IMG/VR virus record: IMGVR_UViG_3300023176_002289
Span: 1 to 20,529 of that record
Origin: a virus
Reading direction: 5' to 3' (one strand)
DNA: 20,529 nt
Below, piece by piece: positions 4,292 through 17,538 of this stretch (positions are counted from its first letter, which is position 1; each line of letters starts with the position of its first letter). A program made the position numbers and the translations under genes. The notes beneath the pieces are model-generated. The model was given only the letters and a program-made list of their open reading frames with translations. It ran no database searches and was not told the origin of the DNA.

Positions 4292-5205
4292 GCCGCTATT
4301 TGACTCCATGTAGTTGTTGCCCTAGCAATTCTCTCCCACTTTTCTCTGCCTACTACTGCTTTACTTGATGTAGAAGATATTGTTGCACCACTACTTCTTA
4401 CTCTTACATTATCTGCTATGACACTTGCAGTTGCTGTTGTAATAGATGATGCACTAGCAGTAACTCTACCTACTCCAGACCAACTAGATGTAGATGATAC
4501 TAATGCACCAGATTCTCTTATCCTACTACCATTTGCATTTGAGGTAGCAGTTGTTGTTGAACTTGCACTTACATCATCTGGGTCTGCATCTACTATTAAA
4601 TCACCACTTGCTGTTGTTGATGATGTGGCAGTTATTGTGTCTGGTGTGCCTTTCGCTGTAAATCTTCCGTTACAAGATACAGTTGCCGTAGATGAAGGGT
4701 TTGCATCTACTTCTCGGACTCTCGTTGCTTGAATGGTAGCAACGGCAGTTGCAGTTCCAGTAGCACTTCCATTAACACTAACCTTACCACTTGATGTGAT
4801 TGTTGAGTTTGATGAAATACTTGCTGAACCATATCTTGCTCTTTCTACTGAGATTGAAACAGTTGCACTAGCACTAACTGTCGCACTACCACCAACAGTA
4901 AAGTTTGCAGTTGCAGTAGTTGAAGATGTAACGCTTGATGTAGCACTAGCACCTCTAATTACTGAACCATTTGCAGTTGTGTTTACAGAAGTTGTGGAAA
5001 CACCATTAATGAGAGCAGAACCCTCTGGTACTCTTCTTGCATTACAAGTGATACTAGCACTAGCGTTTACTGTCGCTGATGTGCTTTGTTGTCTATTTGC
5101 AGTACAAGATGTAGAAGAACTAGCACTTGCTGTAGCAGAACCTTCAAGGACTGCACCAGTTGAGTACGCTAATCTTCCGTATTCGTAACTTCCGTAAACT
5201 GACAT
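4288..5205 (-). CDS. Ser/Thr/Ala-rich tandem-repeat virion protein
   Basis: The 305-residue protein begins MSVYGSYEYGRLAYSTGAVLEGSA and ends EKWERIARATTTWSQIAA. Between them lie about a dozen degenerate units of roughly 16-26 residues. Each is a run of alternating Ser/Thr/Ala with small or hydrophobic residues, often closed by an Arg-rich turn (VIRGASAT, VERARYGSASI, ATRVREVDA, SRIRESGALVSST, VRVRSSGATISST). Such a pattern suggests a stack of short beta strands, as in a beta-solenoid or fibrous shaft. Three Cys residues in the N-terminal third sit in equivalent TC/SC positions. It lies between a tail protein and the gp10-like hub, so it is probably a virion component. The family is not recognised beyond this. 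Confidence 0.75.
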   Translation of the reverse strand: MSVYGSYEYGRLAYSTGAVLEGSATASASSSTSCTANRQQSTSATVNASASITCNARRVPEGSALINGVSTTSVNTTANGSVIRGASATSSVTSSTTATANFTVGGSATVSASATVSISVERARYGSASISSNSTITSSGKVSVNGSATGTATAVATIQATRVREVDANPSSTATVSCNGRFTAKGTPDTITATSSTTASGDLIVDADPDDVSASSTTTATSNANGSRIRESGALVSSTSSWSGVGRVTASASSITTATASVIADNVRVRSSGATISSTSSKAVVGREKWERIARATTTWSQIAA

Positions 5206-5208
5206 TTA

Positions 5209-5589
5209 TTAGTCTAGTGTAATATCTAGGTCACCTGCAGGAACTCTAAATACATCACCAGTTTCAATAGTTTTGTCTGATGAAAGACCTGCGTATGCTA
5301 ATTGATTACCACCAGTTGAAGCATCCATAACTGCTACTGCTACTACTGTTCCGTAGTTTGCTGTTGCTGTTGGAAACTCGACATCTGCTGAATTAGATGC
5401 TGTGTTGCCAGATACAGTAAATGCTACTGTTTGTCTTGCATAAGCACCACCAGATACCTCAGTACCACCACCAGTATCTGTGTTGTCAGTTGTAAATAAT
5501 GCTAGATACAATGTAGCAGGTGCTGTATAAGCATTACCACCAAATACATGGTCTAGTATTTCTGTTTCTAAATAGTTTGAAAAACTCAT
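5209..5589 (-). CDS. Conserved phage tail/structural protein (Gp80-like 'tail fibre' family)
   Basis: The 126-residue protein has the signature of a widespread small phage structural family: SFSNYLETEILDHVFGG at the N-terminus, then APATLYLALFTTDNTD, GGTEVSGGAYARQTVAF, a FPTATANYGTVVAVAVMD strand, and AGDVFRVPAGDLDI-like strands at the end. It is all-beta and lacks a signal peptide. In many phages this family is annotated as tail fibre or head-tail structural protein; its exact place in the virion is not settled. An AAGGGG ribosome site precedes the ATG, which overlaps the adaptor stop (ATGA). Confidence 0.75.
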   Translation of the reverse strand: MSFSNYLETEILDHVFGGNAYTAPATLYLALFTTDNTDTGGGTEVSGGAYARQTVAFTVSGNTASNSADVEFPTATANYGTVVAVAVMDASTGGNQLAYAGLSSDKTIETGDVFRVPAGDLDITLD

Positions 5590-7856: not shown

Positions 7857-8690
7857 TTATGTGTCAGATTCTGTCTTATCCTTTTTACCAAAACCCATCA
7901 GCGGATAAAAGACTAATGAGTTTCTATATCCCCCTTCATGGGTAGGAATAATGGGTGTTACTCCATGAACATTCCGCCATGCAGGATAAACTAGCATTGA
8001 GTTATTACAACTATCAACAGTTGCCCCATAATCAGGGACTGTTGTGCAACCACCCTTGCTGTTTTTTCTCTTTGTTATTATTACATTAACACACTCTTTA
8101 ATGTTTTGTCTGTCAATGTGAAATGGTGCAGCGATATTAAAGTTGCTAATAGAACTCGTAAATAACTCACCAAATCTCCACTCTTTAGGAACATTCTTTT
8201 CTACTGCTTTCTTTTGTGCAGTATAAATACTTGGTGCTAATTTCTTAATTAATTGTTCGCTTTCTTTACAAGCAAGTAGCATTGCTTTAATAAATGTTTG
8301 TGCTGACTCTACTGCATGAACACTACTTCTACTAGGATAAGGTCGTTTCATGTGAGGTCTAGGTGGAATACTGCCTAAGATAGTTGAGTATTGTGCAACT
8401 GATAGTGCTATGGCTTGTTTACGAGTAATGCCTAGTTTCTTTTGTGTATCCCATACATCACTTCTTTCCATTAAAGATTTAGGCACTCTGTCTGATAATA
8501 ATTCATTGTTAGCCACAGTTATAAGTTTTTGTAGTTTCTCGCTGTGTTGCCCAATATTGCGAATGTAAAACCCTACTACTTCGCCATCTTCTACAAATAA
8601 ACAATCTTCTGTGACATTTGGTTCAATATATGGACATTTATCACCGATTCTCGTTTCGTGTTCAACTTTCTTAAGAATATGTGTTTTCAT
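7857..8690 (-). CDS. TET/JBP-type Fe(II)/2-oxoglutarate DNA-base dioxygenase
   Basis: The 277-residue protein has a helical N-terminal region with GSIPPRPHMKRPY and AQTFIKAMLLACKESE, seen in phage TET-like enzymes, and a C-terminal double-stranded beta-helix. The metal triad reads H191-x-D193 (FHIDRQN) and H242 (NVHGVTP), and R256 (GGYRNSLVFY) is the expected 2-oxoglutarate-binding Arg. A GG at 213-214 followed by TVPDYGATV matches the TET/JBP strand-turn motif. The family oxidises the methyl group of 5-methylcytosine or thymine in DNA, so the predicted product is 5-hydroxymethylcytosine or 5-hydroxymethyluracil. Its ATG overlaps the glycosyltransferase stop (ATGA). The family call is confident; the substrate base cannot be read from sequence. 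Confidence 0.85.
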   Translation of the reverse strand: MKTHILKKVEHETRIGDKCPYIEPNVTEDCLFVEDGEVVGFYIRNIGQHSEKLQKLITVANNELLSDRVPKSLMERSDVWDTQKKLGITRKQAIALSVAQYSTILGSIPPRPHMKRPYPSRSSVHAVESAQTFIKAMLLACKESEQLIKKLAPSIYTAQKKAVEKNVPKEWRFGELFTSSISNFNIAAPFHIDRQNIKECVNVIITKRKNSKGGCTTVPDYGATVDSCNNSMLVYPAWRNVHGVTPIIPTHEGGYRNSLVFYPLMGFGKKDKTESDT

Positions 8691-9418
8691 TTAACTTGCT
8701 TCCCATACTTTTTGGCAATGCCTTCTAAATCTATCTTAACCTCATATCGGTCTTTAAATTTCTTTAATTTAGCAAAACCATTATATTTCATCAACAATAT
8801 TTTATTGGCTTCTTGGTCTAATCCTGCTTCATAACTTTCATGCAGACCGCCTTTATTACTACCCATAGCAGGTGCTGAGAAATACATTTGATTAAACTTA
8901 ACTATGCCATTACCCTTGATAATACAATCAACTAGCATTTTATAATCTTCTTTCATGCCGTTGTCATAATCCCATGTTATCTTCTTAGTATTAAGCAACA
9001 TAACTGAGGCAAATAATTTTTTGTTAATGCTGTATGGTTTAGTTTCTGACCATGAGTATGGTGCATAACTAACTCCGTATGCTTCAAATGGAAGTTTCTT
9101 GGCTTTTTCTAATATCTTTAACCAGATACTGGCATCTTTGTTGCTTTTGTTTCTGCCATTAACAACAACGCCGAAGTCACTAATATCATCATCACACATA
9201 ACAATCCACTCATGACCTCTTTCCCTAGCATACTTCATCATAAAGTTTCTAACATAGGGAACGCCTTGGTCGGTAGCACCAATGTTTACTTTACATGGCA
9301 CATCATATAAATCCATCTCTTGTGGCTCAATGAAGTGGATAACCTGAATGCCGACTTTTTCAAATAACTTGTGAGTCTTTGTATTAGGTCGGCTTTTTGT
9401 AGGAATATAACAAATCAC
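8687..9418 (-). CDS. GT-A glycosyltransferase of the TET-associated type
   Basis: The 243-residue protein begins MICYIPTKSRPNTKTHKLFE, where the SR at 9-10 is a typical nucleotide-sugar contact. It has GVPYVRNFMMKYARERG and a clear acidic motif WIVMCDDDIS (D76-D78), the metal and nucleotide-sugar-binding DxD of GT-A enzymes. A second acidic pair (KEDYKM, E157-D158) and GLHESYEAGLDQE follow. This layout resembles the glycosyltransferases encoded next to phage TET enzymes, which add sugars to 5-hydroxymethyl bases. It begins with a GTG that overlaps the ParB-like stop (GTGA), and its own stop overlaps the dioxygenase start, so the three proteins are probably made in ratio. The sugar is unknown. 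Confidence 0.75.
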   Translation of the reverse strand: MICYIPTKSRPNTKTHKLFEKVGIQVIHFIEPQEMDLYDVPCKVNIGATDQGVPYVRNFMMKYARERGHEWIVMCDDDISDFGVVVNGRNKSNKDASIWLKILEKAKKLPFEAYGVSYAPYSWSETKPYSINKKLFASVMLLNTKKITWDYDNGMKEDYKMLVDCIIKGNGIVKFNQMYFSAPAMGSNKGGLHESYEAGLDQEANKILLMKYNGFAKLKKFKDRYEVKIDLEGIAKKYGKQVK

Positions 9419-11137: not shown

Positions 11138-11230
11138 TTACTTACGAATTAGTTTCGCTTTTAATTCGTTAATAAAGCGTTCTAATGACTCATTTAAAAG
11201 TTTCATTTTTTCTAAAAATTCACGCATCAT
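11138..11230 (-). CDS. 30-residue charged micro-protein
   Basis: Hand translation gives MMREFLEKMKLLNESLERF and a basic end KAKLIRK. It is predicted to be one amphipathic helix with alternating Glu and Lys and regularly spaced Leu, so it could be a coiled-coil micro-protein. The start lies inside the last codons of the HTH protein gene (overlap of 11 bases), and the stop is just upstream of the next small gene. Its place in an unbroken chain of coupled ORFs argues that it is translated, but its size keeps confidence low. Confidence 0.4.
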   Translation of the reverse strand: MMREFLEKMKLLNESLERFINELKAKLIRK

Positions 11231-11447
11231 TTGGTAACATCTCCAGTTTATATTTAGCATACCTAGATACATTTCCCGTATAAGGATTAACACTTTCTGT
11301 TTCAATAGAAGCAATAATCCAACCCTTTTCTCTTAACTTACAAATAATTGATGCTAGTCTTGATATGCCGTATTCTTCGTTGGCTGTTTTATGACTAATC
11401 AATCTTCCTTTTTTAAGTTGCACTTTAACCCAATCAATCTGACTCAT
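11220..11447 (-). CDS. Small winged-helix/HTH DNA-binding protein
   Basis: The 75-residue protein contains a predicted helix-turn-helix: LISHKTANEEYGISRLASII as the first helices and KLREKGWIIAS as the recognition helix and wing, then a short hairpin SRYAKYKLEM. The arrangement resembles the small HTH_39-type domains common in phage early regions, which may regulate genes or help replication proteins. An AAAGGAG stands 6 bases before the ATG. The function is inferred from the fold only. Confidence 0.65.
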   Translation of the reverse strand: MSQIDWVKVQLKKGRLISHKTANEEYGISRLASIICKLREKGWIIASIETESVNPYTGNVSRYAKYKLEMLPNDA

Positions 11448-11967: not shown

Positions 11968-12148
11968 TGTCCAACCAATCATTAATTTCTTGTTGAACTT
12001 CTGGCTTTGCATACTGCACTTCTGCGTATGTTTTGTTGCCGTTAAGTATAGCGTTAGCATCTTCTACACTAATGTAGCCTTTACCAATATCTTCCGCTAA
12101 TGAACTTGCAAAGTCTCCTCTATGTGTTGTGGTGCTTATAAATTCCAT
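11960..12148 (-). CDS. Small acidic protein, unknown
   Basis: The 62-residue protein has an N-terminal MEFISTTTHRGDFASSLAED followed by IGKGYISVEDANAILNGN and ends with a helix (PEVQQEINDWLDNG). The pattern is helical and soluble. An AGAAGGAG stands 7 bases before the ATG, which overlaps the upstream stop as TAATG. It is part of a coupled run of small early genes. I do not recognise a family. Confidence 0.6.
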   Translation of the reverse strand: MEFISTTTHRGDFASSLAEDIGKGYISVEDANAILNGNKTYAEVQYAKPEVQQEINDWLDNG

Positions 12149-12483
12149 TATTTCTCTCCTTCTGGGTAAAAGTCTAAATCGTTTAAAACTTGCTCTGAAA
12201 ACTTATTAATAAGAGTTTTATCTACTAACTGTTTAAACTCTGACCAACCGAATGTGCCTGAATAGATATAGATAGTTTTTATGCTATCTTGACAAAATTC
12301 ATAATTACTTATAGTTTCGTAATCACCGTCATAATCTTTCGGTATGTTATGCTCAAAGGTTAAGCAAACAGTTTCGATAAAGTCTAGTAGTTTTTCTTTA
12401 TCGTTTTGGTAATTAACATCTGGTGAGTCAAACTCAGGATGTCTAACATAACTAATCTCGTTTGTTCTGCTAGGTGTGTTCAT
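12148..12483 (-). CDS. Hypothetical early protein, first gene after promoter copy A
   Basis: The 111-residue acidic protein contains YVRHPEFDSPDVNYQNDKEK, a LLDFIETVCLTF helix and an aromatic segment IYIYSGTFGWSEFKQLVDKT. There is no signal peptide or catalytic motif. It starts about 50 bases downstream of a TATAAT element shared with three other places in the window, so it heads the transcript of the small-gene block at 10986-12483. An AGAGAG weakly serves as ribosome site. The function is unknown. Confidence 0.65.
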   Translation of the reverse strand: MNTPSRTNEISYVRHPEFDSPDVNYQNDKEKLLDFIETVCLTFEHNIPKDYDGDYETISNYEFCQDSIKTIYIYSGTFGWSEFKQLVDKTLINKFSEQVLNDLDFYPEGEK

Positions 12484-12535
12484 AATATTCTCTCTGTTAT
12501 TTGGTTAAAAATATAAGTTTTATCAACTTACTAAC

Positions 12536-12557
12536 ATATTATAACGCCTTTTTAACG
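12536..12557 (-). promoter_or_regulatory. Repeated promoter element, copy A
   Basis: On the minus strand this reads GTTAAAAAGGCGTTATAATA within a 22-bp block identical in copies B and C. The TATAAT (12538-12543) is a perfect -10 box facing the gene that starts at 12483, leaving a leader near 48 bases. A weak -35 (TTAACC) sits 17 bases upstream. Confidence 0.65.
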
Positions 12558-12836
12558 CTAGGTTAAACTTTTTTTTAAAAAATTTTCTACTTTTTCTAAA
12601 TGATATTCTTGTGTGCCGTATGTATCTTCCCATACTCTCATGCCTAACTGGTGTATTCCCTGATGACCTCTATGATGTTCAACACATAAACCAATCGTAT
12701 AAATATCGTCTGCTTTCATGCCCATGCCTTTGTATTTATGACCGATTAAATGATGTATCTCTGCAGGTCTTTTACACACACAGCAACCCATCTGCGATAT
12801 TAAATCAAATCTTTTACGCCTTTCGGCTTGTGTCAT
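12558..12836 (-). CDS. Ref-like HNH endonuclease (RecA-dependent nuclease family)
   Basis: The product is 92 residues. It has a zinc-bound HNH core: GCCVCKR, EIHHLIGHKY, TIGLCVEHHRG and HQGIHQLG, followed by WEDTYGTQEY. The spacing of the Cys pair, HH, Cys and HH is that of the P1 Ref family, in which RecA-coated single-stranded DNA directs cutting of the matching duplex. The start at 12836 is chosen because it overlaps the previous stop (ATGA) and gives the usual short N-terminus; a longer form could begin at 12857. Together with the annealing protein it suggests recombination-linked processing. RecA dependence is inferred from the family. Confidence 0.75.
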   Translation of the reverse strand: MTQAERRKRFDLISQMGCCVCKRPAEIHHLIGHKYKGMGMKADDIYTIGLCVEHHRGHQGIHQLGMRVWEDTYGTQEYHLEKVENFLKKSLT

Positions 12837-13012
12837 TGTAGAGTTTCGTTTTGACATTCTTCTTCTATTTCAAATAATTCAGGATTATCTATGATTGCTT
12901 CTATATGGTCATCAAAGTTTGATGGGGTAGCGTGGCTTGTTTCTGCTACATGATTTGTTATATCTGATAGCATCTGTAACGCTATTTCGTATTTTTGTTC
13001 TATTGTTGCCAT
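12833..13012 (-). CDS. 59-residue acidic small protein
   Basis: Hand translation gives MATIEQKYEIALQMLSDITN at the start and an acidic end (FEIEEECQNETLQ). The protein is helical with net negative charge. The start overlaps the DUF1367 stop as TAATG and the stop overlaps the HNH start as ATGA, so it fills the gap between two real genes exactly. That placement is the main evidence that it is translated. No family is recognised. Confidence 0.55.
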   Translation of the reverse strand: MATIEQKYEIALQMLSDITNHVAETSHATPSNFDDHIEAIIDNPELFEIEEECQNETLQ

Positions 13013-13479
13013 TAGTAAAATTCCTCTAATTGCTCAACTACTTTATCTAAATCTTCTCTGCTGTAGTTTGTTAATATCTTTTTTAGTATGACATTTATTG
13101 TAGCATCATAAAGTTCAGCAAAGGTTTCTTCGTTCATTTTGTTAAACGCTATTGATTTGGCTTCTATCCTGACAGAGCCATCAACTCTGTAAACCGCATC
13201 ATAATGTCCACTTAGTATGATTAAGTCTTTCCTAAATCTATTGAATGATTTTTCAGGAATAACATTATCCCATTTAGCATCTTGTAATGCTTCTGGTTCC
13301 CAGTTCTCATAAGCAAAGTTTAACAATGCAAAATACTTTTTGTGAAATTTGTAGTTTCTCGGCTTTTTAAACTCAGCAGTAATAACTTCGTTAATCTTTA
13401 GTTTATCTATAAAATCTGCTGATTCTTTGTCCTCTGGGACTATAGTAACACCAGTCACCTTTTTAAGATTTAATCTCAT
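13012..13479 (-). CDS. DUF1367-family phage protein
   Basis: The 155-residue protein contains KPRNYKFHKKYFALLNFAYE near residues 39-58, the hallmark of DUF1367, a family found in the recombination and replication regions of lambdoid and related phages. Further blocks are FNRFRKDLIILSGHYDAVYR and a C-terminal helix LDKVVEQLEEFY. The biochemical role of the family is not established. The ATG overlaps the stop of the loader-like gene (ATGA), placing it in the replication operon. Confidence 0.75.
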   Translation of the reverse strand: MRLNLKKVTGVTIVPEDKESADFIDKLKINEVITAEFKKPRNYKFHKKYFALLNFAYENWEPEALQDAKWDNVIPEKSFNRFRKDLIILSGHYDAVYRVDGSVRIEAKSIAFNKMNEETFAELYDATINVILKKILTNYSREDLDKVVEQLEEFY

Positions 13480-14060
13480 CTCGTTTGAAAGTATTTAATA
13501 ATCTTTTCTTGTCTTTCTTGAGTTAGTTCCCTCATTTGTTTGTAGGCTTCTTGAGGGTTATCTTCACTAGGTGTTATCCACTTTGGACAATAATGAAAAC
13601 TCATCATGTATTTAGATTCCCAACGCTTCCAACCTCTGTGCTTCATATTGTAATCATGAAATAAATTTTCAATATAAGAAGGAACATCAATAAATCTGTT
13701 TGTAATATAAAATTTAAACTTCGCTTTATCATCAGCACTTTCCCACTTACGCATCCAATCAATCTGAGTATCGACTTCTATCACCGGAAGTGCAGGTCTA
13801 GTTTGTTGAGCAATGCTTTTAATTACTTTGATAATTTCAGGAACAGTAGGTGGGTGTTGTCTGCCTTCCTCTGCTATTTGGTTTAATGCTTCCTGCCAAC
13901 ATAAAACCTCATGGTCATGTAATCTTTCTAACTGTTCAGCAAGAAACCTAATCATTTGTGGTTTATCTACGCCTTTAGCAGAAGCGTATTTATATTCCAT
14001 CTCTAATCGCTCTAGTATAGATTGAGCGACTTCAATATAATCAATGTTTGGTGTGTACAT
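13476..14060 (-). CDS. Putative replication accessory protein (lambda P-like helicase loader)
   Basis: The 194-residue protein is helical. Its central block ALNQIAEEGRQHPPTVPEII resembles the PPSVPEF motif of phage P-type loaders, and the C-terminal half has FIDVPSYIENLFHDYNMKHR and KRWESKYMM. No Walker motifs are visible, as expected for P-type proteins that load host DnaB without their own ATPase. It starts inside the initiator gene, with AAGGAG 8 bases upstream, in the classical initiator-then-loader order. The loader call rests on this order and one weak motif, so it is moderate. Confidence 0.45.
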   Translation of the reverse strand: MYTPNIDYIEVAQSILERLEMEYKYASAKGVDKPQMIRFLAEQLERLHDHEVLCWQEALNQIAEEGRQHPPTVPEIIKVIKSIAQQTRPALPVIEVDTQIDWMRKWESADDKAKFKFYITNRFIDVPSYIENLFHDYNMKHRGWKRWESKYMMSFHYCPKWITPSEDNPQEAYKQMRELTQERQEKIIKYFQTR

Positions 14061-14742
14061 CTTGTATTCTCCTTTGGTTTAATTCATTTTGACGCAGTTC
14101 TTTTATCTCATCAAGCGTTAAAACTTTCTTTTGGTTAATTTGTTCGTTTCTAACAATTTTGCCTATTTCTGCATACGACATTTGACTTTTTTCAGTTTTT
14201 GTTTGGTCTGCTTGTCTGCTCATCCAACTGTTAATAAATCTTGGCATACCTCTGTTAGTTTTTAATTTACTAACATTTGACTTGAGCCACATATTCATTT
14301 TGTTAAATTCCTCAGCACAATTAACAAACTGATAAGTATGTTGTAATTCCTCGAAGTGTTGTTCAGTCACAATGTATGTTCCGTCTTTTGTTAATAATTT
14401 ATATTTAACATTTACATTATCATTTACATTTACATTAACTGCTTTTTTTGGTTCTGAAAAAACCTTTTGCTTTTTTTGGTTATCTTTGGTTTTTTTAGGT
14501 CTGCCACCTTTTGAGCCGTTTGCTCTCAGGGTTTCAACCCGTTTTTCATATTTATCATTATCTAAATCAAACTGATTTTTATAGAACATAAATGCCATAT
14601 TTATGCTACTTTCTAGTTCTGGTATTTGACCCGTTATTTGATATTGAAAAATTGCTCTGAATAGTTTTCCGAGTTCATCATCTGATAGATGTTTGACTGG
14701 CTCGTAAAATGATTTATAAATTAAAAATGATTGTTTGTCCAT
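14041..14742 (-). CDS. Replication initiator-type protein (DUF6291-like N-terminus)
   Basis: The 233-residue protein starts MDKQSFLIYKSFYEPVKHLS followed by DDELGKLFRAIFQYQITGQ, the DUF6291 pattern seen in phage initiator or replisome-organiser proteins. A basic GGRPKK hook (79-84) and a low-complexity NVNVNDNVNV tract (102-111) come next, then a C-terminal domain with PRFINSWMSRQ, shared with phage replication proteins. The NVN tract is encoded by a 6-base repeat that could be the origin. It is followed directly by the loader-like gene. With no polymerase in the window, replication may recruit the host replisome, as phage lambda does. Confidence 0.65.
   Translation of the reverse strand: MDKQSFLIYKSFYEPVKHLSDDELGKLFRAIFQYQITGQIPELESSINMAFMFYKNQFDLDNDKYEKRVETLRANGSKGGRPKKTKDNQKKQKVFSEPKKAVNVNVNDNVNVKYKLLTKDGTYIVTEQHFEELQHTYQFVNCAEEFNKMNMWLKSNVSKLKTNRGMPRFINSWMSRQADQTKTEKSQMSYAEIGKIVRNEQINQKKVLTLDEIKELRQNELNQRRIQDVHTKH
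14406..14439 (-). repeat. Iteron-like ATGTAA repeats within the initiator gene, candidate origin
   Basis: On the minus strand the tract is a run of 6-base units of the form ATGTAA with two variants (ATGATA and ATGTTA). It encodes the Asn-Val repeat of the initiator. It is the only such tract in the window, is very AT-rich, and has the position of the lambda origin inside gene O. Confidence 0.4.
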
Positions 14743-14775
14743 TTAACCCCCGTATGATTAACCCTTGCTTGATGT

Positions 14776-14798
14776 GGGGTGGGTAATTAATCCACCCC
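14776..14798 (-). other. GC-rich hairpin before the initiator gene
   Basis: The seven-base stem GGGGTGG/CCACCCC encloses a loop containing the palindrome ATTAAT. It lies 34-56 bases upstream of the initiator ATG in a 112-base gap. No U-run follows on the minus strand, so it is not a standard terminator. A similar hairpin occurs at 16137-16154. Confidence 0.4.
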
Positions 14799-14854
14799 TG
14801 AAAATTTTTAATGTAATTTTCAACCATACAAGGAAATTATTATTTTACCTGATA

Positions 14855-15046
14855 TTAAGGCGTGTTTTTACCTAAATCATAATTAATTAAATAATCAAGA
14901 TAAAGTTGTTTACATGGATAACCCTGCTCATATTTTTGCCATTGACGAGTTCCTACGCCAATAATTTCTGCACATTGTTTTTGTGTTAGTCCTAGTTCAT
15001 GTCGCAGACTTTTAATTTCTGCCCCAGTCATTGATGCTTTTTTCAT
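14855..15046 (-). CDS. XRE-family HTH regulator
   Basis: The 63-residue protein is a minimal Cro/C1-type domain: TGAEIKSLRHELGLTQKQCA forms helices 1-2, and EIIGVGTRQWQKYEQGYP gives the recognition helix. A short C-terminal helix follows (LYLDYLINYDL). AGGAG stands 6 bases before the ATG. It is the only clear XRE repressor-like protein here and precedes the initiator gene after a gap with a GC-rich hairpin, so it may regulate replication genes or the promoter family of this window. Its targets are unknown. Confidence 0.75.
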   Translation of the reverse strand: MKKASMTGAEIKSLRHELGLTQKQCAEIIGVGTRQWQKYEQGYPCKQLYLDYLINYDLGKNTP

Positions 15047-15055
15047 TATTTTCTC

Positions 15056-15232
15056 CTATAGGCTTTTATATTCATCATTCATATTGGCAAAATGAAACCT
15101 TATCGCTTTATCAAATTCTTTATTTTCTTGAGATAATCTCCAGATAATAGTTCCTATCCATTGAATAGACATTCTTCTTGGTAAGTTATCTACTAAATCT
15201 CTTGCGACTCTTTCGCTATCTTCCATGTTCAT
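15056..15232 (-). CDS. 58-residue helical protein, unknown
   Basis: Hand translation gives MNMEDSERVARDLVDNLPRR then MSIQWIGTIIWRLSQENKEF and an end MNDEYKSL. It is helical with a Trp-containing amphipathic middle. AGGA stands 6 bases before the ATG, and the ATG overlaps the stop of the previous ORF (ATGA). Its stop codon is followed at once by the ribosome site of the HTH gene. No family is recognised. Confidence 0.6.
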   Translation of the reverse strand: MNMEDSERVARDLVDNLPRRMSIQWIGTIIWRLSQENKEFDKAIRFHFANMNDEYKSL

Positions 15233-15378
15233 TCTTCTTCCTCTATTTTTTCAATTCTCATAGATTCAACGACTGCATAGTCATAGTCAGAAGTAAGCAA
15301 TTTTGTTCTTGCATCATCCTCAGAATCAGCAATCACATCATAAACAATTTTTTCAGTTGTAGTTACTTTGTAAATCAT
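15229..15378 (-). CDS. 49-residue small protein, unknown
   Basis: Hand translation gives MIYKVTTTEKIVYDVIADSE then DDARTKLLTSDYDYAVVESM and an acidic end with four Glu. The strand-helix-strand pattern (YKVTT, DDARTKLL, DYAVVES) resembles small ferredoxin-like or YcfA-type folds, but nothing specific can be shown. A GGGAG precedes the ATG by 6 bases and the stop overlaps the next start. Confidence 0.6.
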   Translation of the reverse strand: MIYKVTTTEKIVYDVIADSEDDARTKLLTSDYDYAVVESMRIEKIEEEE

Positions 15379-15391
15379 CTCTCTCTCCCAG

Positions 15392-15598
15392 TTATAATTC
15401 ATTAAGTTTGGTATCTGTTTCTTTTATTCCCATAGAATTAGCGTTTTCTATAAGAGTATTGTATAAATCCTTGTCGTGCTTTGCTAGGTTATCATACAGC
15501 CACACCACTTCATCAATAGCGGTATCTACATCCCAATCACAAACGACCATTTCTGCTAATCTGTATAGCATATATTCAGTTAATTTTTTTTCTGCCAT
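15392..15598 (-). CDS. 68-residue acidic helical protein, unknown
   Basis: The product begins MAEKKLTEYMLYRLAEMVVC and continues DWDVDTAIDEVVWLYDNLAK. It is helical and acidic, without signal peptide or catalytic motifs. The ATG overlaps the preceding TAA (TAATG), with GAGGG upstream. It belongs to the small-gene operon behind promoter copy B. The function is unknown. Confidence 0.65.
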   Translation of the reverse strand: MAEKKLTEYMLYRLAEMVVCDWDVDTAIDEVVWLYDNLAKHDKDLYNTLIENANSMGIKETDTKLNEL

Positions 15599-15912
15599 TA
15601 GAATTCCCTCACTAAATATGTATTATCTTTACACTTAATTACGAGTGTTTCGTTTTCTATAGTTTCCATATTTGCTACTTCATCTTCATGAAATAGAAAC
15701 CTATAGCGGTCAAAAAGATGTTGTTTTGTTTTATATGCTGACCACTCTGAACGCACTTCAACTTTATTAAATTCCCAATGATAGTTTTCGCCACCACATT
15801 GTTGTTCATAGTAATCTGCTAGTGCTTCTGCTTGTTCGTAAGTCCAACCTGCATATTTATCTTGCATTAATCTGTCAATAACATCAGTCATGTTTAAAGT
15901 ATCAACTATCAT
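15598..15912 (-). CDS. Hypothetical small early protein
   Basis: The chosen start gives 104 residues. The protein contains MTDVIDRLMQDKYAGWTYEQ, then AEALADYYEQQCGGENYHWE, then the WSAYKTKQHLFDRYRFLFHE block, and ends VIKCKDNTYLVREF. Although the frame is open to 15936, the ATG at 15912 overlaps the previous stop as TAATG and has GAGGAG 8 bases upstream, so it is the likely start. No function is recognised. Confidence 0.65.
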   Translation of the reverse strand: MIVDTLNMTDVIDRLMQDKYAGWTYEQAEALADYYEQQCGGENYHWEFNKVEVRSEWSAYKTKQHLFDRYRFLFHEDEVANMETIENETLVIKCKDNTYLVREF

Positions 15913-16079
15913 TACACTCTCTCCTCGTTTTCCCATAAAACTTCTGTAACGGCTTCTTGTGAATCAAAAGCATCAAAGCCGTCTTGTATTAATTGAGCAA
16001 CAATATATCTAGCGTTGTCGCCTTGTTTGACTTGTTCTCTAACTCTTTCTAATAAAATTTGTGAAACATGATTTTTCAT
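15912..16079 (-). CDS. 55-residue helical protein, first gene after promoter copy B
   Basis: Hand translation gives MKNHVSQILLERVREQVKQG then DNARYIVAQLIQDGFDAFDS, ending in an acidic helix. A clear AGGAG lies 5 bases before the ATG. The predicted transcription start from promoter copy B is about 27 bases upstream, so this gene heads the transcript. The stop overlaps the next start as TAATG. The family is not recognised. Confidence 0.6.
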   Translation of the reverse strand: MKNHVSQILLERVREQVKQGDNARYIVAQLIQDGFDAFDSQEAVTEVLWENEERV

Positions 16080-16110
16080 TTGTTCTCCTTGCGGTTTGGT
16101 TAATGTAGGG

Positions 16111-16132
16111 ATATTATAACGCCTTTTTAACG
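16111..16132 (-). promoter_or_regulatory. Repeated promoter element, copy B
   Basis: It is identical over 22 bp to copies A and C, with TATAAT at 16113-16118 on the minus strand. No -35-like hexamer lies 16-18 bases upstream: a C-rich stretch is there instead. It faces the gene starting at 16079. Confidence 0.65.
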
Positions 16133-16136
16133 GGTA

Positions 16137-16158
16137 GGGGGAAATTAATCCCCCTTTT
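16137..16158. terminator. GC-rich hairpin after the 16161-16547 gene
   Basis: The five-base stem GGGGG/CCCCC has an AAATTAAT loop at 16137-16154. A TTTT run follows on the plus strand only, while the gene that ends just before it is on the minus strand. It may be a weak terminator or an RNA-stabilising hairpin. It sits directly upstream of promoter copy B. Confidence 0.4.
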
Positions 16159-16160
16159 AA

Positions 16161-16547
16161 TTAAAAATCTGGAAACGGGTCTGCTTCCCTGATTGATACC
16201 ATTTCGGTATTATCATCAGTAAGCGTATAAAGTTCAGGATAACAAACTTCTGCTTCCTTCTCGTGTCTATCAATAAAGTCGTCCATGCTTTCGTCATCAC
16301 TTAAAAGATATTTAGCACCGCTATACTTGGTGTTATAGTTTGCACAAAAGTCTGCAACCCTAGCATATATGTTTGCTAAGTTGTCATCCCAGAAAACCAA
16401 AGACTCGCCACCTTTCCATCTAAATGAAGGGTTTTCACTATCGCCGTAATTTTCTAACCACTGTAAGTGAATAACAAAACACTTAGTGTGAAAGTCCTCA
16501 CCGAAGTTATATTTAATATCTAAGATTGATGGTTTAGTTGTGTTCAT
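16161..16547 (-). CDS. Hypothetical early protein behind promoter copy C
   Basis: The 128-residue acidic protein contains ILDIKYNFGEDFHTKCFVIH, RWKGGESLVFWDDNLANIYA, a helix VADFCANYNTKY, and an acidic DDESMDDFIDRHEKEAEVCY. It ends DPFPDF. No enzyme motif is visible. AAGGAG stands 7 bases before the ATG, and the predicted start of transcription from promoter copy C is about 23 bases upstream. It is monocistronic, with a hairpin after the stop. The function is unknown. Confidence 0.65.
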   Translation of the reverse strand: MNTTKPSILDIKYNFGEDFHTKCFVIHLQWLENYGDSENPSFRWKGGESLVFWDDNLANIYARVADFCANYNTKYSGAKYLLSDDESMDDFIDRHEKEAEVCYPELYTLTDDNTEMVSIREADPFPDF

Positions 16548-16576
16548 AACTTTCTCCTTTTTTTTTAGTTATGAGC

Positions 16577-16608
16577 ATATTATAACGCCTTTTTAACGCC
16601 TTTTTAAC
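16577..16608 (-). promoter_or_regulatory. Repeated promoter element, copy C, with tandem box
   Basis: It is identical to copies A and B over 22 bp, and the upstream box GTTAAAAAGGC is repeated once more in tandem. TATAAT lies at 16579-16584 on the minus strand, facing the gene that starts at 16547. The tandem box comes within 5 bases of the -35 of the divergent plus-strand promoter, so one factor could affect both directions. Confidence 0.65.
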
Positions 16609-16612
16609 TTTT

Positions 16613-16649
16613 TTTACATTTTTTTTATTTTTTTATATAAGATACTGCC
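16613..16649 (+). promoter_or_regulatory. Sigma70-type promoter for a leaderless mRNA
   Basis: TTTACA at 16613-16618 (one mismatch to TTGACA) lies 17 bases from TATAAG at 16636-16641. The expected transcription start 7-9 bases later falls at or next to the ATG at 16650, and no ribosome site is visible, so the mRNA is probably leaderless. Confidence 0.55.
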
Positions 16650-16808
16650 ATGGATAAACAACAAGAAGTAATTAGCAAAGCATTAGATATTAAATTAGTT
16701 ATCGGTCAAATTCAGCGTTGTGTTGATGACCAAACTAAAGATAGTCTTTGTGAGCATATTGAAGATTTGTGTGAGGACATTCTTGAATTATTAGATGCAA
16801 GAAGTTGA
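16650..16808 (+). CDS. 52-residue acidic protein, partner ORF of the VRR-NUC gene
   Basis: Hand translation gives MDKQQEVISKALDIKLVIGQ then IQRCVDDQTKDSLCEHIEDL and a final acidic helix. It is fully helical, with regularly spaced hydrophobic positions that suit a coiled coil or four-helix dimer. There is no Shine-Dalgarno; a good promoter sits just upstream (leaderless). It overlaps the nuclease start by 14 bases, so both are coupled. It might control or bind the nuclease; this is an inference from coupling alone. Confidence 0.55.
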   Translation: MDKQQEVISKALDIKLVIGQIQRCVDDQTKDSLCEHIEDLCEDILELLDARS

Positions 16809-17139
16809 ACACAAAATACAAAAAGCAATAGTTCAATATCTTGAAATAAGACGCATTTGTTTTTGGTCAGTCCCTAATGGCGGTCACAGAAATATAGGGG
16901 TAGCCCGTAAGTTAAAATCCGAAGGCGTAAAAGCAGGTGTTCCAGATATAACCATAATTCATGATGGTAAATATTATGGCATTGAAGTTAAAAAACCAAA
17001 AACCCAAACCCCTAAGGGAACGCTCTCATCTATTCAAAGGGTGCGTATAAAACAAATCGAAGAAGCAGGTGGTCAAGTTGGCGTTGCTTACTCTGTTGAA
17101 GATGTCTATCAACTCCTTGAAGATTGGAAAATTAAATAA
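16795..17139 (+). CDS. VRR-NUC domain nuclease
   Basis: The 114-residue protein is a single VRR-NUC domain of the PD-(D/E)xK superfamily. It has FWSVPNGGHRNIGVARKLKS at 23-42, GVPDITI with D51, YYGIEVKKPK with E64 and K66 as the catalytic ExK, and a QxxRI helix with Q81. A final strand-helix segment GQVGVAYSVEDVYQLL completes the fold. Such domains act as Holliday-junction or flap nucleases in phages and in FAN1. It is on the minority plus strand, translated from an overlap with the acidic ORF. The resolvase role fits the recombination genes nearby; its exact substrate is not shown. Confidence 0.85.
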   Translation: MQEVEHKIQKAIVQYLEIRRICFWSVPNGGHRNIGVARKLKSEGVKAGVPDITIIHDGKYYGIEVKKPKTQTPKGTLSSIQRVRIKQIEEAGGQVGVAYSVEDVYQLLEDWKIK

Positions 17140-17167
17140 TACCCTTACTCAAAACATGGTTACTACC

Positions 17168-17188
17168 CGTCAAAAAGGCGTATAATAT
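17168..17188 (+). promoter_or_regulatory. Repeated promoter element, copy D (plus strand)
   Basis: CGTCAAAAAGGCGTATAATA matches copies A-C with one substitution and one missing base, in the opposite orientation. TATAAT is at 17181-17186 and the gene starts at 17314, leaving a leader of about 120 bases. Confidence 0.6.
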
Positions 17189-17192
17189 TCAT

Positions 17193-17313
17193 ATTAACCT
17201 TGAGGTGACAGTGATAGGTTGCTCTCTAAAAATCTAAAAAAATTTGAATCTTGTAAAGATGAATCTTCAAGTATCTTAATATTTTATTTAACTAAATATA
17301 AGGAGAAATACTT
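17193..17313 (+). promoter_or_regulatory. Long leader of the 17314 gene
   Basis: The leader carries two TGAATCTT copies near 17250 and 17264. They can join alternative short stems, for example AAGA/TCTT within CTTG/CAAG. A good AGGAG stands 8 bases before the ATG. No upstream ORF of useful length is visible. Confidence 0.35.
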
Positions 17314-17538
17314 ATGAAAGATTTAACTGGTAAAACATTCAAAATTGAAGATAAAGAATTTGAAATCTTAGCCGATGGTAGAAAAGGCGAAGGTTACATT
17401 GGATTCGGTTTAGTAATGTTTAAAGAAATAGGCAAACCACTTCCAGAAGATGGTAGTTGCTATTCAGAAAGTGGTTATTATTTCTCAGACAACCCACCAT
17501 ACTTTGATGAAGCAGGTTGGTTAAAAAGAAATTCATAA
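17314..17538 (+). CDS. Small hypothetical protein, monocistronic
   Basis: The 74-residue protein is beta-rich: MKDLTGKTFKIEDKEFEILA, then GEGYIGFGLVMFKEIGKPLP, then ESGYYFSDNPPYFDEAGWL. Early beta hairpins and a Gly/Tyr-rich end suggest a compact fold. It has its own copy of the repeated promoter element, a long leader, a strong ribosome site and a strong terminator, so it is an independent transcription unit, possibly a regulated early gene. The family is not recognised. Confidence 0.7.
   Translation: MKDLTGKTFKIEDKEFEILADGRKGEGYIGFGLVMFKEIGKPLPEDGSCYSESGYYFSDNPPYFDEAGWLKRNS

Follow-up and report, generated by a model that had tools for sequence, protein, structure and literature searches.

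A promoter box repeated in an uncultured tailed phage and its relatives, probably the operator of a small Aca10-like regulator

Why do four promoters in one stretch of phage DNA share a conserved box in the spacer ahead of the -10 hexamer, and what reads it? The stretch in question (hereafter, the window) comprises 20,529 bases of the uncultured virus record IMGVR_UViG_3300023176_002289 in IMG/VR, has a G+C content of 35.9%, and encodes tailed-phage genes (terminase, NinB, HNH, and VRR-NUC). Our answer, which is based on sequence comparison, is that the box is probably the operator of a small phage helix-turn-helix (HTH) regulator, encoded at 14855-15046 of the window, that would work like the Aca10 repressor.

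The 22-bp block CGTTAAAAAGGCGTTATAATAT occurs with the same letters three times on the minus strand, at 12536-12557 (promoter A, which combines a CG-N9-CG box with TATAAT; -10 at 12538-12543, upstream of gene 12148-12483), 16111-16132 (promoter B; -10 at 16113-16118, upstream of gene 15912-16079), and 16577-16598 (promoter C; -10 at 16579-16584, upstream of gene 16161-16547). A near copy on the plus strand, at 17168-17188 (promoter D; -10 at 17181-17186, before gene 17314-17538), differs by a T-to-C change in its left part and is one T shorter before TATAAT. A preliminary description of the window had reported these copies, each with a TATAAT aimed at a nearby gene start, and both statements are borne out at the same positions; that is, all four copies have the TATAAT of a sigma-70 promoter, and all four -10s lie outside open reading frames, 55 (A), 34 (B), 32 (C), and 128 (D) nucleotides (nt) from the next gene on the same strand. 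Searching the window for the 20-mer core with up to three mismatches returned four matches vs. 0.01 expected, a number reached by 0 of 100 shuffled sequences. The fourth of these matches is a second, tandem core in promoter C (GTTAAAAAGGCGTTAAAAAG; 16589-16608, minus strand), 11 bp upstream and in phase, and D falls outside the four because of its deletion. At 17 nt, the -35 reads TTAACC in A and TTAAAA in C (10 of 12 consensus matches each), and no -35 was seen at B and D.

Relatives were sought with the VRR-NUC protein as query against viral contigs, which returned 11 loci; those sharing further proteins with the window are G002-G008 and G010, some of which were reached via the box pattern, and G011 and G012, with at most one protein in common with the group, were set aside. 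L006, a contig nearly identical to the window, retains copy A. The motif was searched with orientation over the whole window and these relatives, and the box is conserved at the relatives' promoters, where AAAAGG(G)CG stands directly before TATAAT, in several cases with TTGACA at 16-17 nt. Across 77 non-redundant loci (116 before L001-L005 and the redundant loci were removed), GGCG precedes 13 of 629 TATAATs vs. about 1.3 expected from base composition by a hand calculation. This excess, together with the relatives' promoters, indicates that the box is real and conserved and that the absent -35 is not general: the lack of a standard -35 noted in the preliminary description holds for the window, whose only candidates at 16-18 nt are TTAACC and TTAAAA, and for some relatives, but not for the family.

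A leave-one-genome-out profile restricted to the 14 spacer columns (-35 and -10 ignored; 13 phage records, with the scanned genome kept out of training) gave 31 sites scoring at least 14, of which 27 have TAnnnT immediately after them (background, 3.5%), compared with 1 of 44 sites at the same score for ten column-permuted profiles. Strong matches are nearly all intergenic, so the motif is not equally common in coding DNA, the outcome that would have spoken against a promoter family. Each phage carries 3-5 box promoters, structural genes included, and the box persists among phages that share proteins with the window at identities of 25-93%. The four strong sites without TAnnnT are at window 11156, G004 30832, G006 4887, and G010 508. 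The one in the window (~11156, minus strand) is a high-scoring ACGAATTAAAAGCG site (16.8) that has no adjoining -10; it adjoins an inverted copy (TTCGTAA), and a TATAAT lies further down.

Over the relatives, the box is a palindrome, ATACG-N9-CGTAT, and full-strength sites read (TTGAC)A-ATACG-N9-CGTAT-AAT. We tabulated 35 sites, having dropped G005 34699, G007 3790, G008 12468 (the same as in G004), G004 27521, and G010 1529. With arms 5-9 bp from column -7, 3.17 of 5 pairs match at this symmetry centre vs. at most 2.09 at the other centres tested, and the left half, ATACG, is matched at 4-5 of its five positions in 19 of the 35 sites (1.5% for random 5-mers). The palindrome within the core promoter is found in relatives and only partly in the window. 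The box originally described, AAAAAGGCG, is real and conserved but covers just the right-hand side of the element.

The derivation of the palindrome preceded any comparison with the Aca10 operator. According to PMC9410881, the minimal operator of Aca10 in electrophoretic mobility shift assays is ATACGCTCATTGAGCGTAT, 19 bp, inside a TTGCAA-N16-TATTCT promoter, and belongs, as IR2, to the acrIC7-acrIC6-aca10 operon of Pseudomonas citronellolis. Joining the published strings, a reconstruction made here, gives TTGCAA-ATACGCTCATTGAGCG-TATTCT, to be compared with TTGACA-ATACGAATTAAAGGCG-TATACT in G003, whose full-strength site is ATACGAATTAAAGGCGTAT. The half-sites and the N9 spacing of the box are those of the Aca10 operator, and by our own reconstruction its register appears to be the same as well.

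The candidate reader of the box is the 63-aa XRE/HTH_31 protein encoded at 14855-15046 on the minus strand, about 1.07 kb downstream of promoter B. It is of the small single-domain kind, matching HTH_31 at 27.5 bits vs. a cut-off of 27.0 (Aca10 is listed as 65 aa, HTH_31), and is predicted to form a compact helical domain (mean pLDDT 87.5). Its profile matches chains of PezA, Aca2, Aca10, and MqsA, with Aca10 (7xi5) at an E-value of 1.8e-4 over residues 9-43; for the predicted model, Foldseek placed Aca10 second (TMq 0.79, E 0.016), behind a restriction-modification controller protein; and Q22, R34, and Q37, the residues with which Aca10 reads DNA, are kept in 13 of 13 HTH relatives. The gene and the box also travel together. 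The HTH gene lies downstream of a promoter with its own site in 11 of 13 records, the box being 385-1941 nt upstream on the same strand, and in the other two the contig stops short, 1356 and 1284 nt upstream of the gene. Among 18 contigs found with NinB, the two with the HTH gene (one lineage) have three boxes each, and the 16 without it show no strict box and one loose match. Conversely, a profile of the HTH protein (A1) run against viral contigs gave 23 loci, and all five that were reached by the HTH protein and not by the box (L252, L253, L257, L258, and L259) carry it, in the form TACGAA-N2-AARRGCG-TAnnnT and even next to a poor -10 (TAGACT, TAAGAT); the six weaker HTH relatives (L267, L269-L273) showed no convincing box. 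An early impression that the HTH gene is not conserved, when a first protein scan returned one distant relative only and the copies in G002 and G007 escaped BLASTP, was ruled out by tblastn without masking (7 of 7 relatives holding the region). Isolate phages gave no DNA match to the window, only distant relatives of the HTH protein, and only chance-level matches to a 37-nt consensus promoter (E 6). A box-like promoter divergent to an XRE-like gene (2331-2691) was also seen in a bacterial Selenomonadales metagenome-assembled genome (L160 2281-2308), and may be a coincidence.

We infer binding, its repressive sign, and its timing from these comparisons. An HTH dimer on the ATACG/CGTAT palindrome would cover -27 to -11, taking in the spacer together with the leading three bases of the -10; so bound, it would shut out host RNA polymerase. 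On incoming phage DNA every box promoter would fire at once; since the HTH gene lies inside a box-driven operon, the accumulating regulator would close an autoregulatory loop and then damp all box promoters together. Of the possibilities raised in the preliminary description (activator, repressor, or sigma-like factor), a repressor in the form of the XRE protein is well supported, the palindrome of the relatives equalling, in half-sites, spacing, and reconstructed register, the operator measured for Aca10, a repressor of the same HTH kind. For a sigma-like factor or phage polymerase no support was found: PF00940 (phage single-subunit RNA polymerase) matched 0 of 12 records, in a search whose control was silent and whose records may be fragments, and no sigma-family search was made. 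A T7-type promoter was dropped, no polymerase having been found in that same search.

Several observations weigh against a simple repressor of this kind. In the window, the left half-sites are degenerate (TAGCG, TACCCG, GGCG) and one T too many is present in A-C (CGTTAT); the best Aca10-like sites are therefore those in relatives, and the left half is mostly lost in G005, G007, and G010. The score cut-offs were picked after the scores had been seen, and the 35-site table holds 11 sites from L loci that were chosen by eye or by motif, which leans its column counts toward the motif. Every Foldseek E-value exceeds 0.001, and R44, the most critical residue of Aca10, is absent: the loop of the window protein reads Q-G-Y-P-C-K (Y43, P44, C45, K46), in which K46 may substitute for it. 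An extra residue in the alpha3-alpha4 loop, at the place of R44, is present in 4 of 13 records, and the left half-site C at 1 of 12 sites in these records vs. 22 of 28 in the other nine, a correlation that is a hint and not proof given shared ancestry, as it may reflect one or two events (G005, G007, and G010 form one clade, and the tree gives G002 no firm place). A winged-helix HTH_39 protein (11220-11447, minus strand), the main rival candidate for reading the box, accompanies it about as often (11 of 12 records). Finally, boxes also precede structural genes (G005 12432, G006 16881), which is odd for a repressor made early and is unexplained by a simple early shut-off; general damping, or activation, may operate there instead.

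A rival reading is activation: the same HTH protein, or the HTH_39 protein with the co-occurrence just described, could bind the box and aid polymerase at promoters without a -35, much as activators that bind the spacer do. The window, G006, and L252+633 do combine a poor -35 with an intact box, and the -10 is poor as well in L252 and L259. We consider this unlikely, however: a promoter with both TTGACA and TATAAT, as many box promoters are, ought to fire unaided; the homologous operator that has been measured serves a repressor and has the same register; and a dimer at the box would cover polymerase contacts. Rather less probable still is that host sigma-70 polymerase simply reads the box as the favoured spacer of strong promoters. 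Although the box is found at 11 of 15 strong intergenic -35/-10 pairs (8 records) and GGGCGTATAAT is present in the secE promoter of E. coli, the remaining four pairs have no box, and two of these four drive a small divergent gene that is HTH-like in G005. Further, TTGACA-N6..9-AAAARGGCGTATAAT occurs in only 64 stretches of ~85,000 species genomes, at up to about two per genome, and these are mostly from Clostridia and in no case from a marine proteobacterium by title; one-mismatch counts in four of those genomes are in the same range as the reversed-pattern control; and the palindrome and the Aca10 match would be left unexplained.

A lack of any regulatory role, with promoter-leader units copied by recombination and alike only because the copying is recent, would account for the identity of A, B, and C over 22 bp and for D-type leaders standing before different genes in the window and in G002. 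We regard it as very improbable, since beyond the box the sequences around A, B, and C show no relation to one another, and since phages as divergent as those above (25-93% protein identity) still have the box. We favor the box as the operator of the Aca10-like HTH protein. Concerning secE itself, GAGGGCGTATAAT is part of L285 (the E. coli secE promoter), and a 47-nt query has matches in 5272 of 5426 E. coli genomes; a plain-text literature search for the motif returned items that are unrelated by title, except for a table on this promoter.

The transcripts from box promoters share a second feature. A hairpin of at least five pairs begins 5-8 nt after the -10 (about +1) at 27 of 35 box promoters, compared with 4-12 of 35 in control windows shifted 12-30 nt either way and 52 of 188 for TATAATs without a box. 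The stem sequences vary by promoter, so it seems to be the structure that is kept; 5'-terminal base-pairing slows RppH and RNase E (PMC3997798). Promoter A has such a hairpin at 12513-12531 (minus strand; 7 pairs, starting 7 nt after the -10), transcript C a predicted one at 16544-16574 (minus strand) whose 3' arm covers the start codon, and promoter B none. The leader of D (17196-17231, plus strand) holds a possible AACCT/AGGTT hairpin (17196-17220), which differs from the minimum-energy fold, followed by a boxA-like TGCTCTCTAAAA (17220-17231). Two readings of the hairpins, as a sequence-specific RNA operator and as an MqsA-like site (AACCT..AGGTT), were dropped because the stem sequences differ between promoters.

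At 33-54 nt past the -10, D-type leaders (window, G002, G004/G008, G005, and G007, five distinct phages) contain a sequence resembling TGCTCTYTAAAA, positioned after the leader hairpin in the window and at G002 4981, G004 14745, G008 12505, G005 31551, and G007 1595; another 14 matches lie outside such leaders, about as frequent as in shuffled sequence (totals of 5-16). The published boxA consensus is GYTCTTTAANA (PMC5725501), and the similarity suggests Nus-dependent antitermination of the D transcript from an rrn/nut-type leader. The promoter-leader unit of D (window 17168-17538) runs against the main direction of the genes, and that of G002 (4921-5481) precedes a different gene, as if the leader moved as a cassette. 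Divergent from the D-type promoter, G005 (31222-31416, minus strand) and the matching place in G007 hold a possible small Cro-like HTH gene with weak Pfam matches, which is not in the window; its own box-less TTGACT/TATACT promoter (-10 at 1468 in G007) stands 7-8 nt before the start codon, so that the transcript is possibly leaderless, as the lambda cI mRNA is.

Regarding other features, a strong G-rich stem-loop (AGGGGGAAATTAATCCCCCT, 16136-16155) lies directly upstream of promoter B and is flagged as terminator-like on the plus strand only. Neither Pfam nor PHROG matched the first genes behind A and C, and Rfam gave no match in the window. Genes 7857-8690 and 8687-9418 match PHROG families annotated as queuine tRNA-ribosyltransferase and glucosyltransferase, respectively, and adjoin a ParB/methyltransferase-like gene; this region may encode DNA modification. 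The lineage carrying the box is probably marine.

It is intriguing, if rather doubtful at present, that the Aca10-like autorepressor could act as a genome-wide master regulator of a non-integrating lineage, with its operator in early, replication, and structural core promoters and with 5' hairpins protecting the mRNA after shut-off. This would be a fire-once-then-hold scheme; neither a phage polymerase (in the search with the silent control) nor a classical late activator was found to go with it, and the integrase family PF00589 matched 0 of 12 records, with a positive control (14 of 14). Aca proteins have been known so far as keepers of anti-CRISPR operons, and among the matches listed (titles and abstract starts) a literature search on Aca10 and marine phages showed no Aca regulon extending over a phage genome. 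If such a regulon were real, the role of the Aca family would be wider than anti-CRISPR control, and phage metagenomes could be searched by means of the operator for regulated genes, possibly ones with anti-defence roles.

The box has counterparts in several known systems. Like mycobacteriophage stoperators and start-associated sequences, it is a genome-wide repeated site for a phage repressor, although stoperators are asymmetric and have no fixed place inside the promoter. The promoter early stem-loop cassettes of T4-type phages likewise repeat a promoter and a stem-loop as one unit, but lack a regulator palindrome, and in the box phages it is the stem-loop that opens the mRNA. In archaeal viruses with Aca8, one promoter-overlapping sequence recurs on many viral genes and a viral HTH repressor is proposed, there on archaeal TATA/BRE promoters and early genes only (PMC11065993). 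Aca1-Aca9 share the inverted repeat within the core promoter, with autorepression tested in E. coli reporters, although their repeat sequences differ and they are known from acr-aca operons (PMC9410906). Closest is Aca10 (PMC9410881), with the same 19-bp ATACG-N9-CGTAT overlapping the spacer and the start of the -10, a regulator gene within the operon, and a small HTH protein with Q22, R34, and Q37 and a possible relation in fold and profile. The system would work like Aca10 control; we do not file it as a member of the Aca family because R44 is absent. Here, no anti-CRISPR gene was identified (no acr search having been made), the sites are asymmetric with a strong right half (AAGGGCGTAT), the mRNAs open with 5' hairpins, and the operator, rather than serving one anti-CRISPR operon, stands at 3-5 promoters per phage, including those of structural genes.

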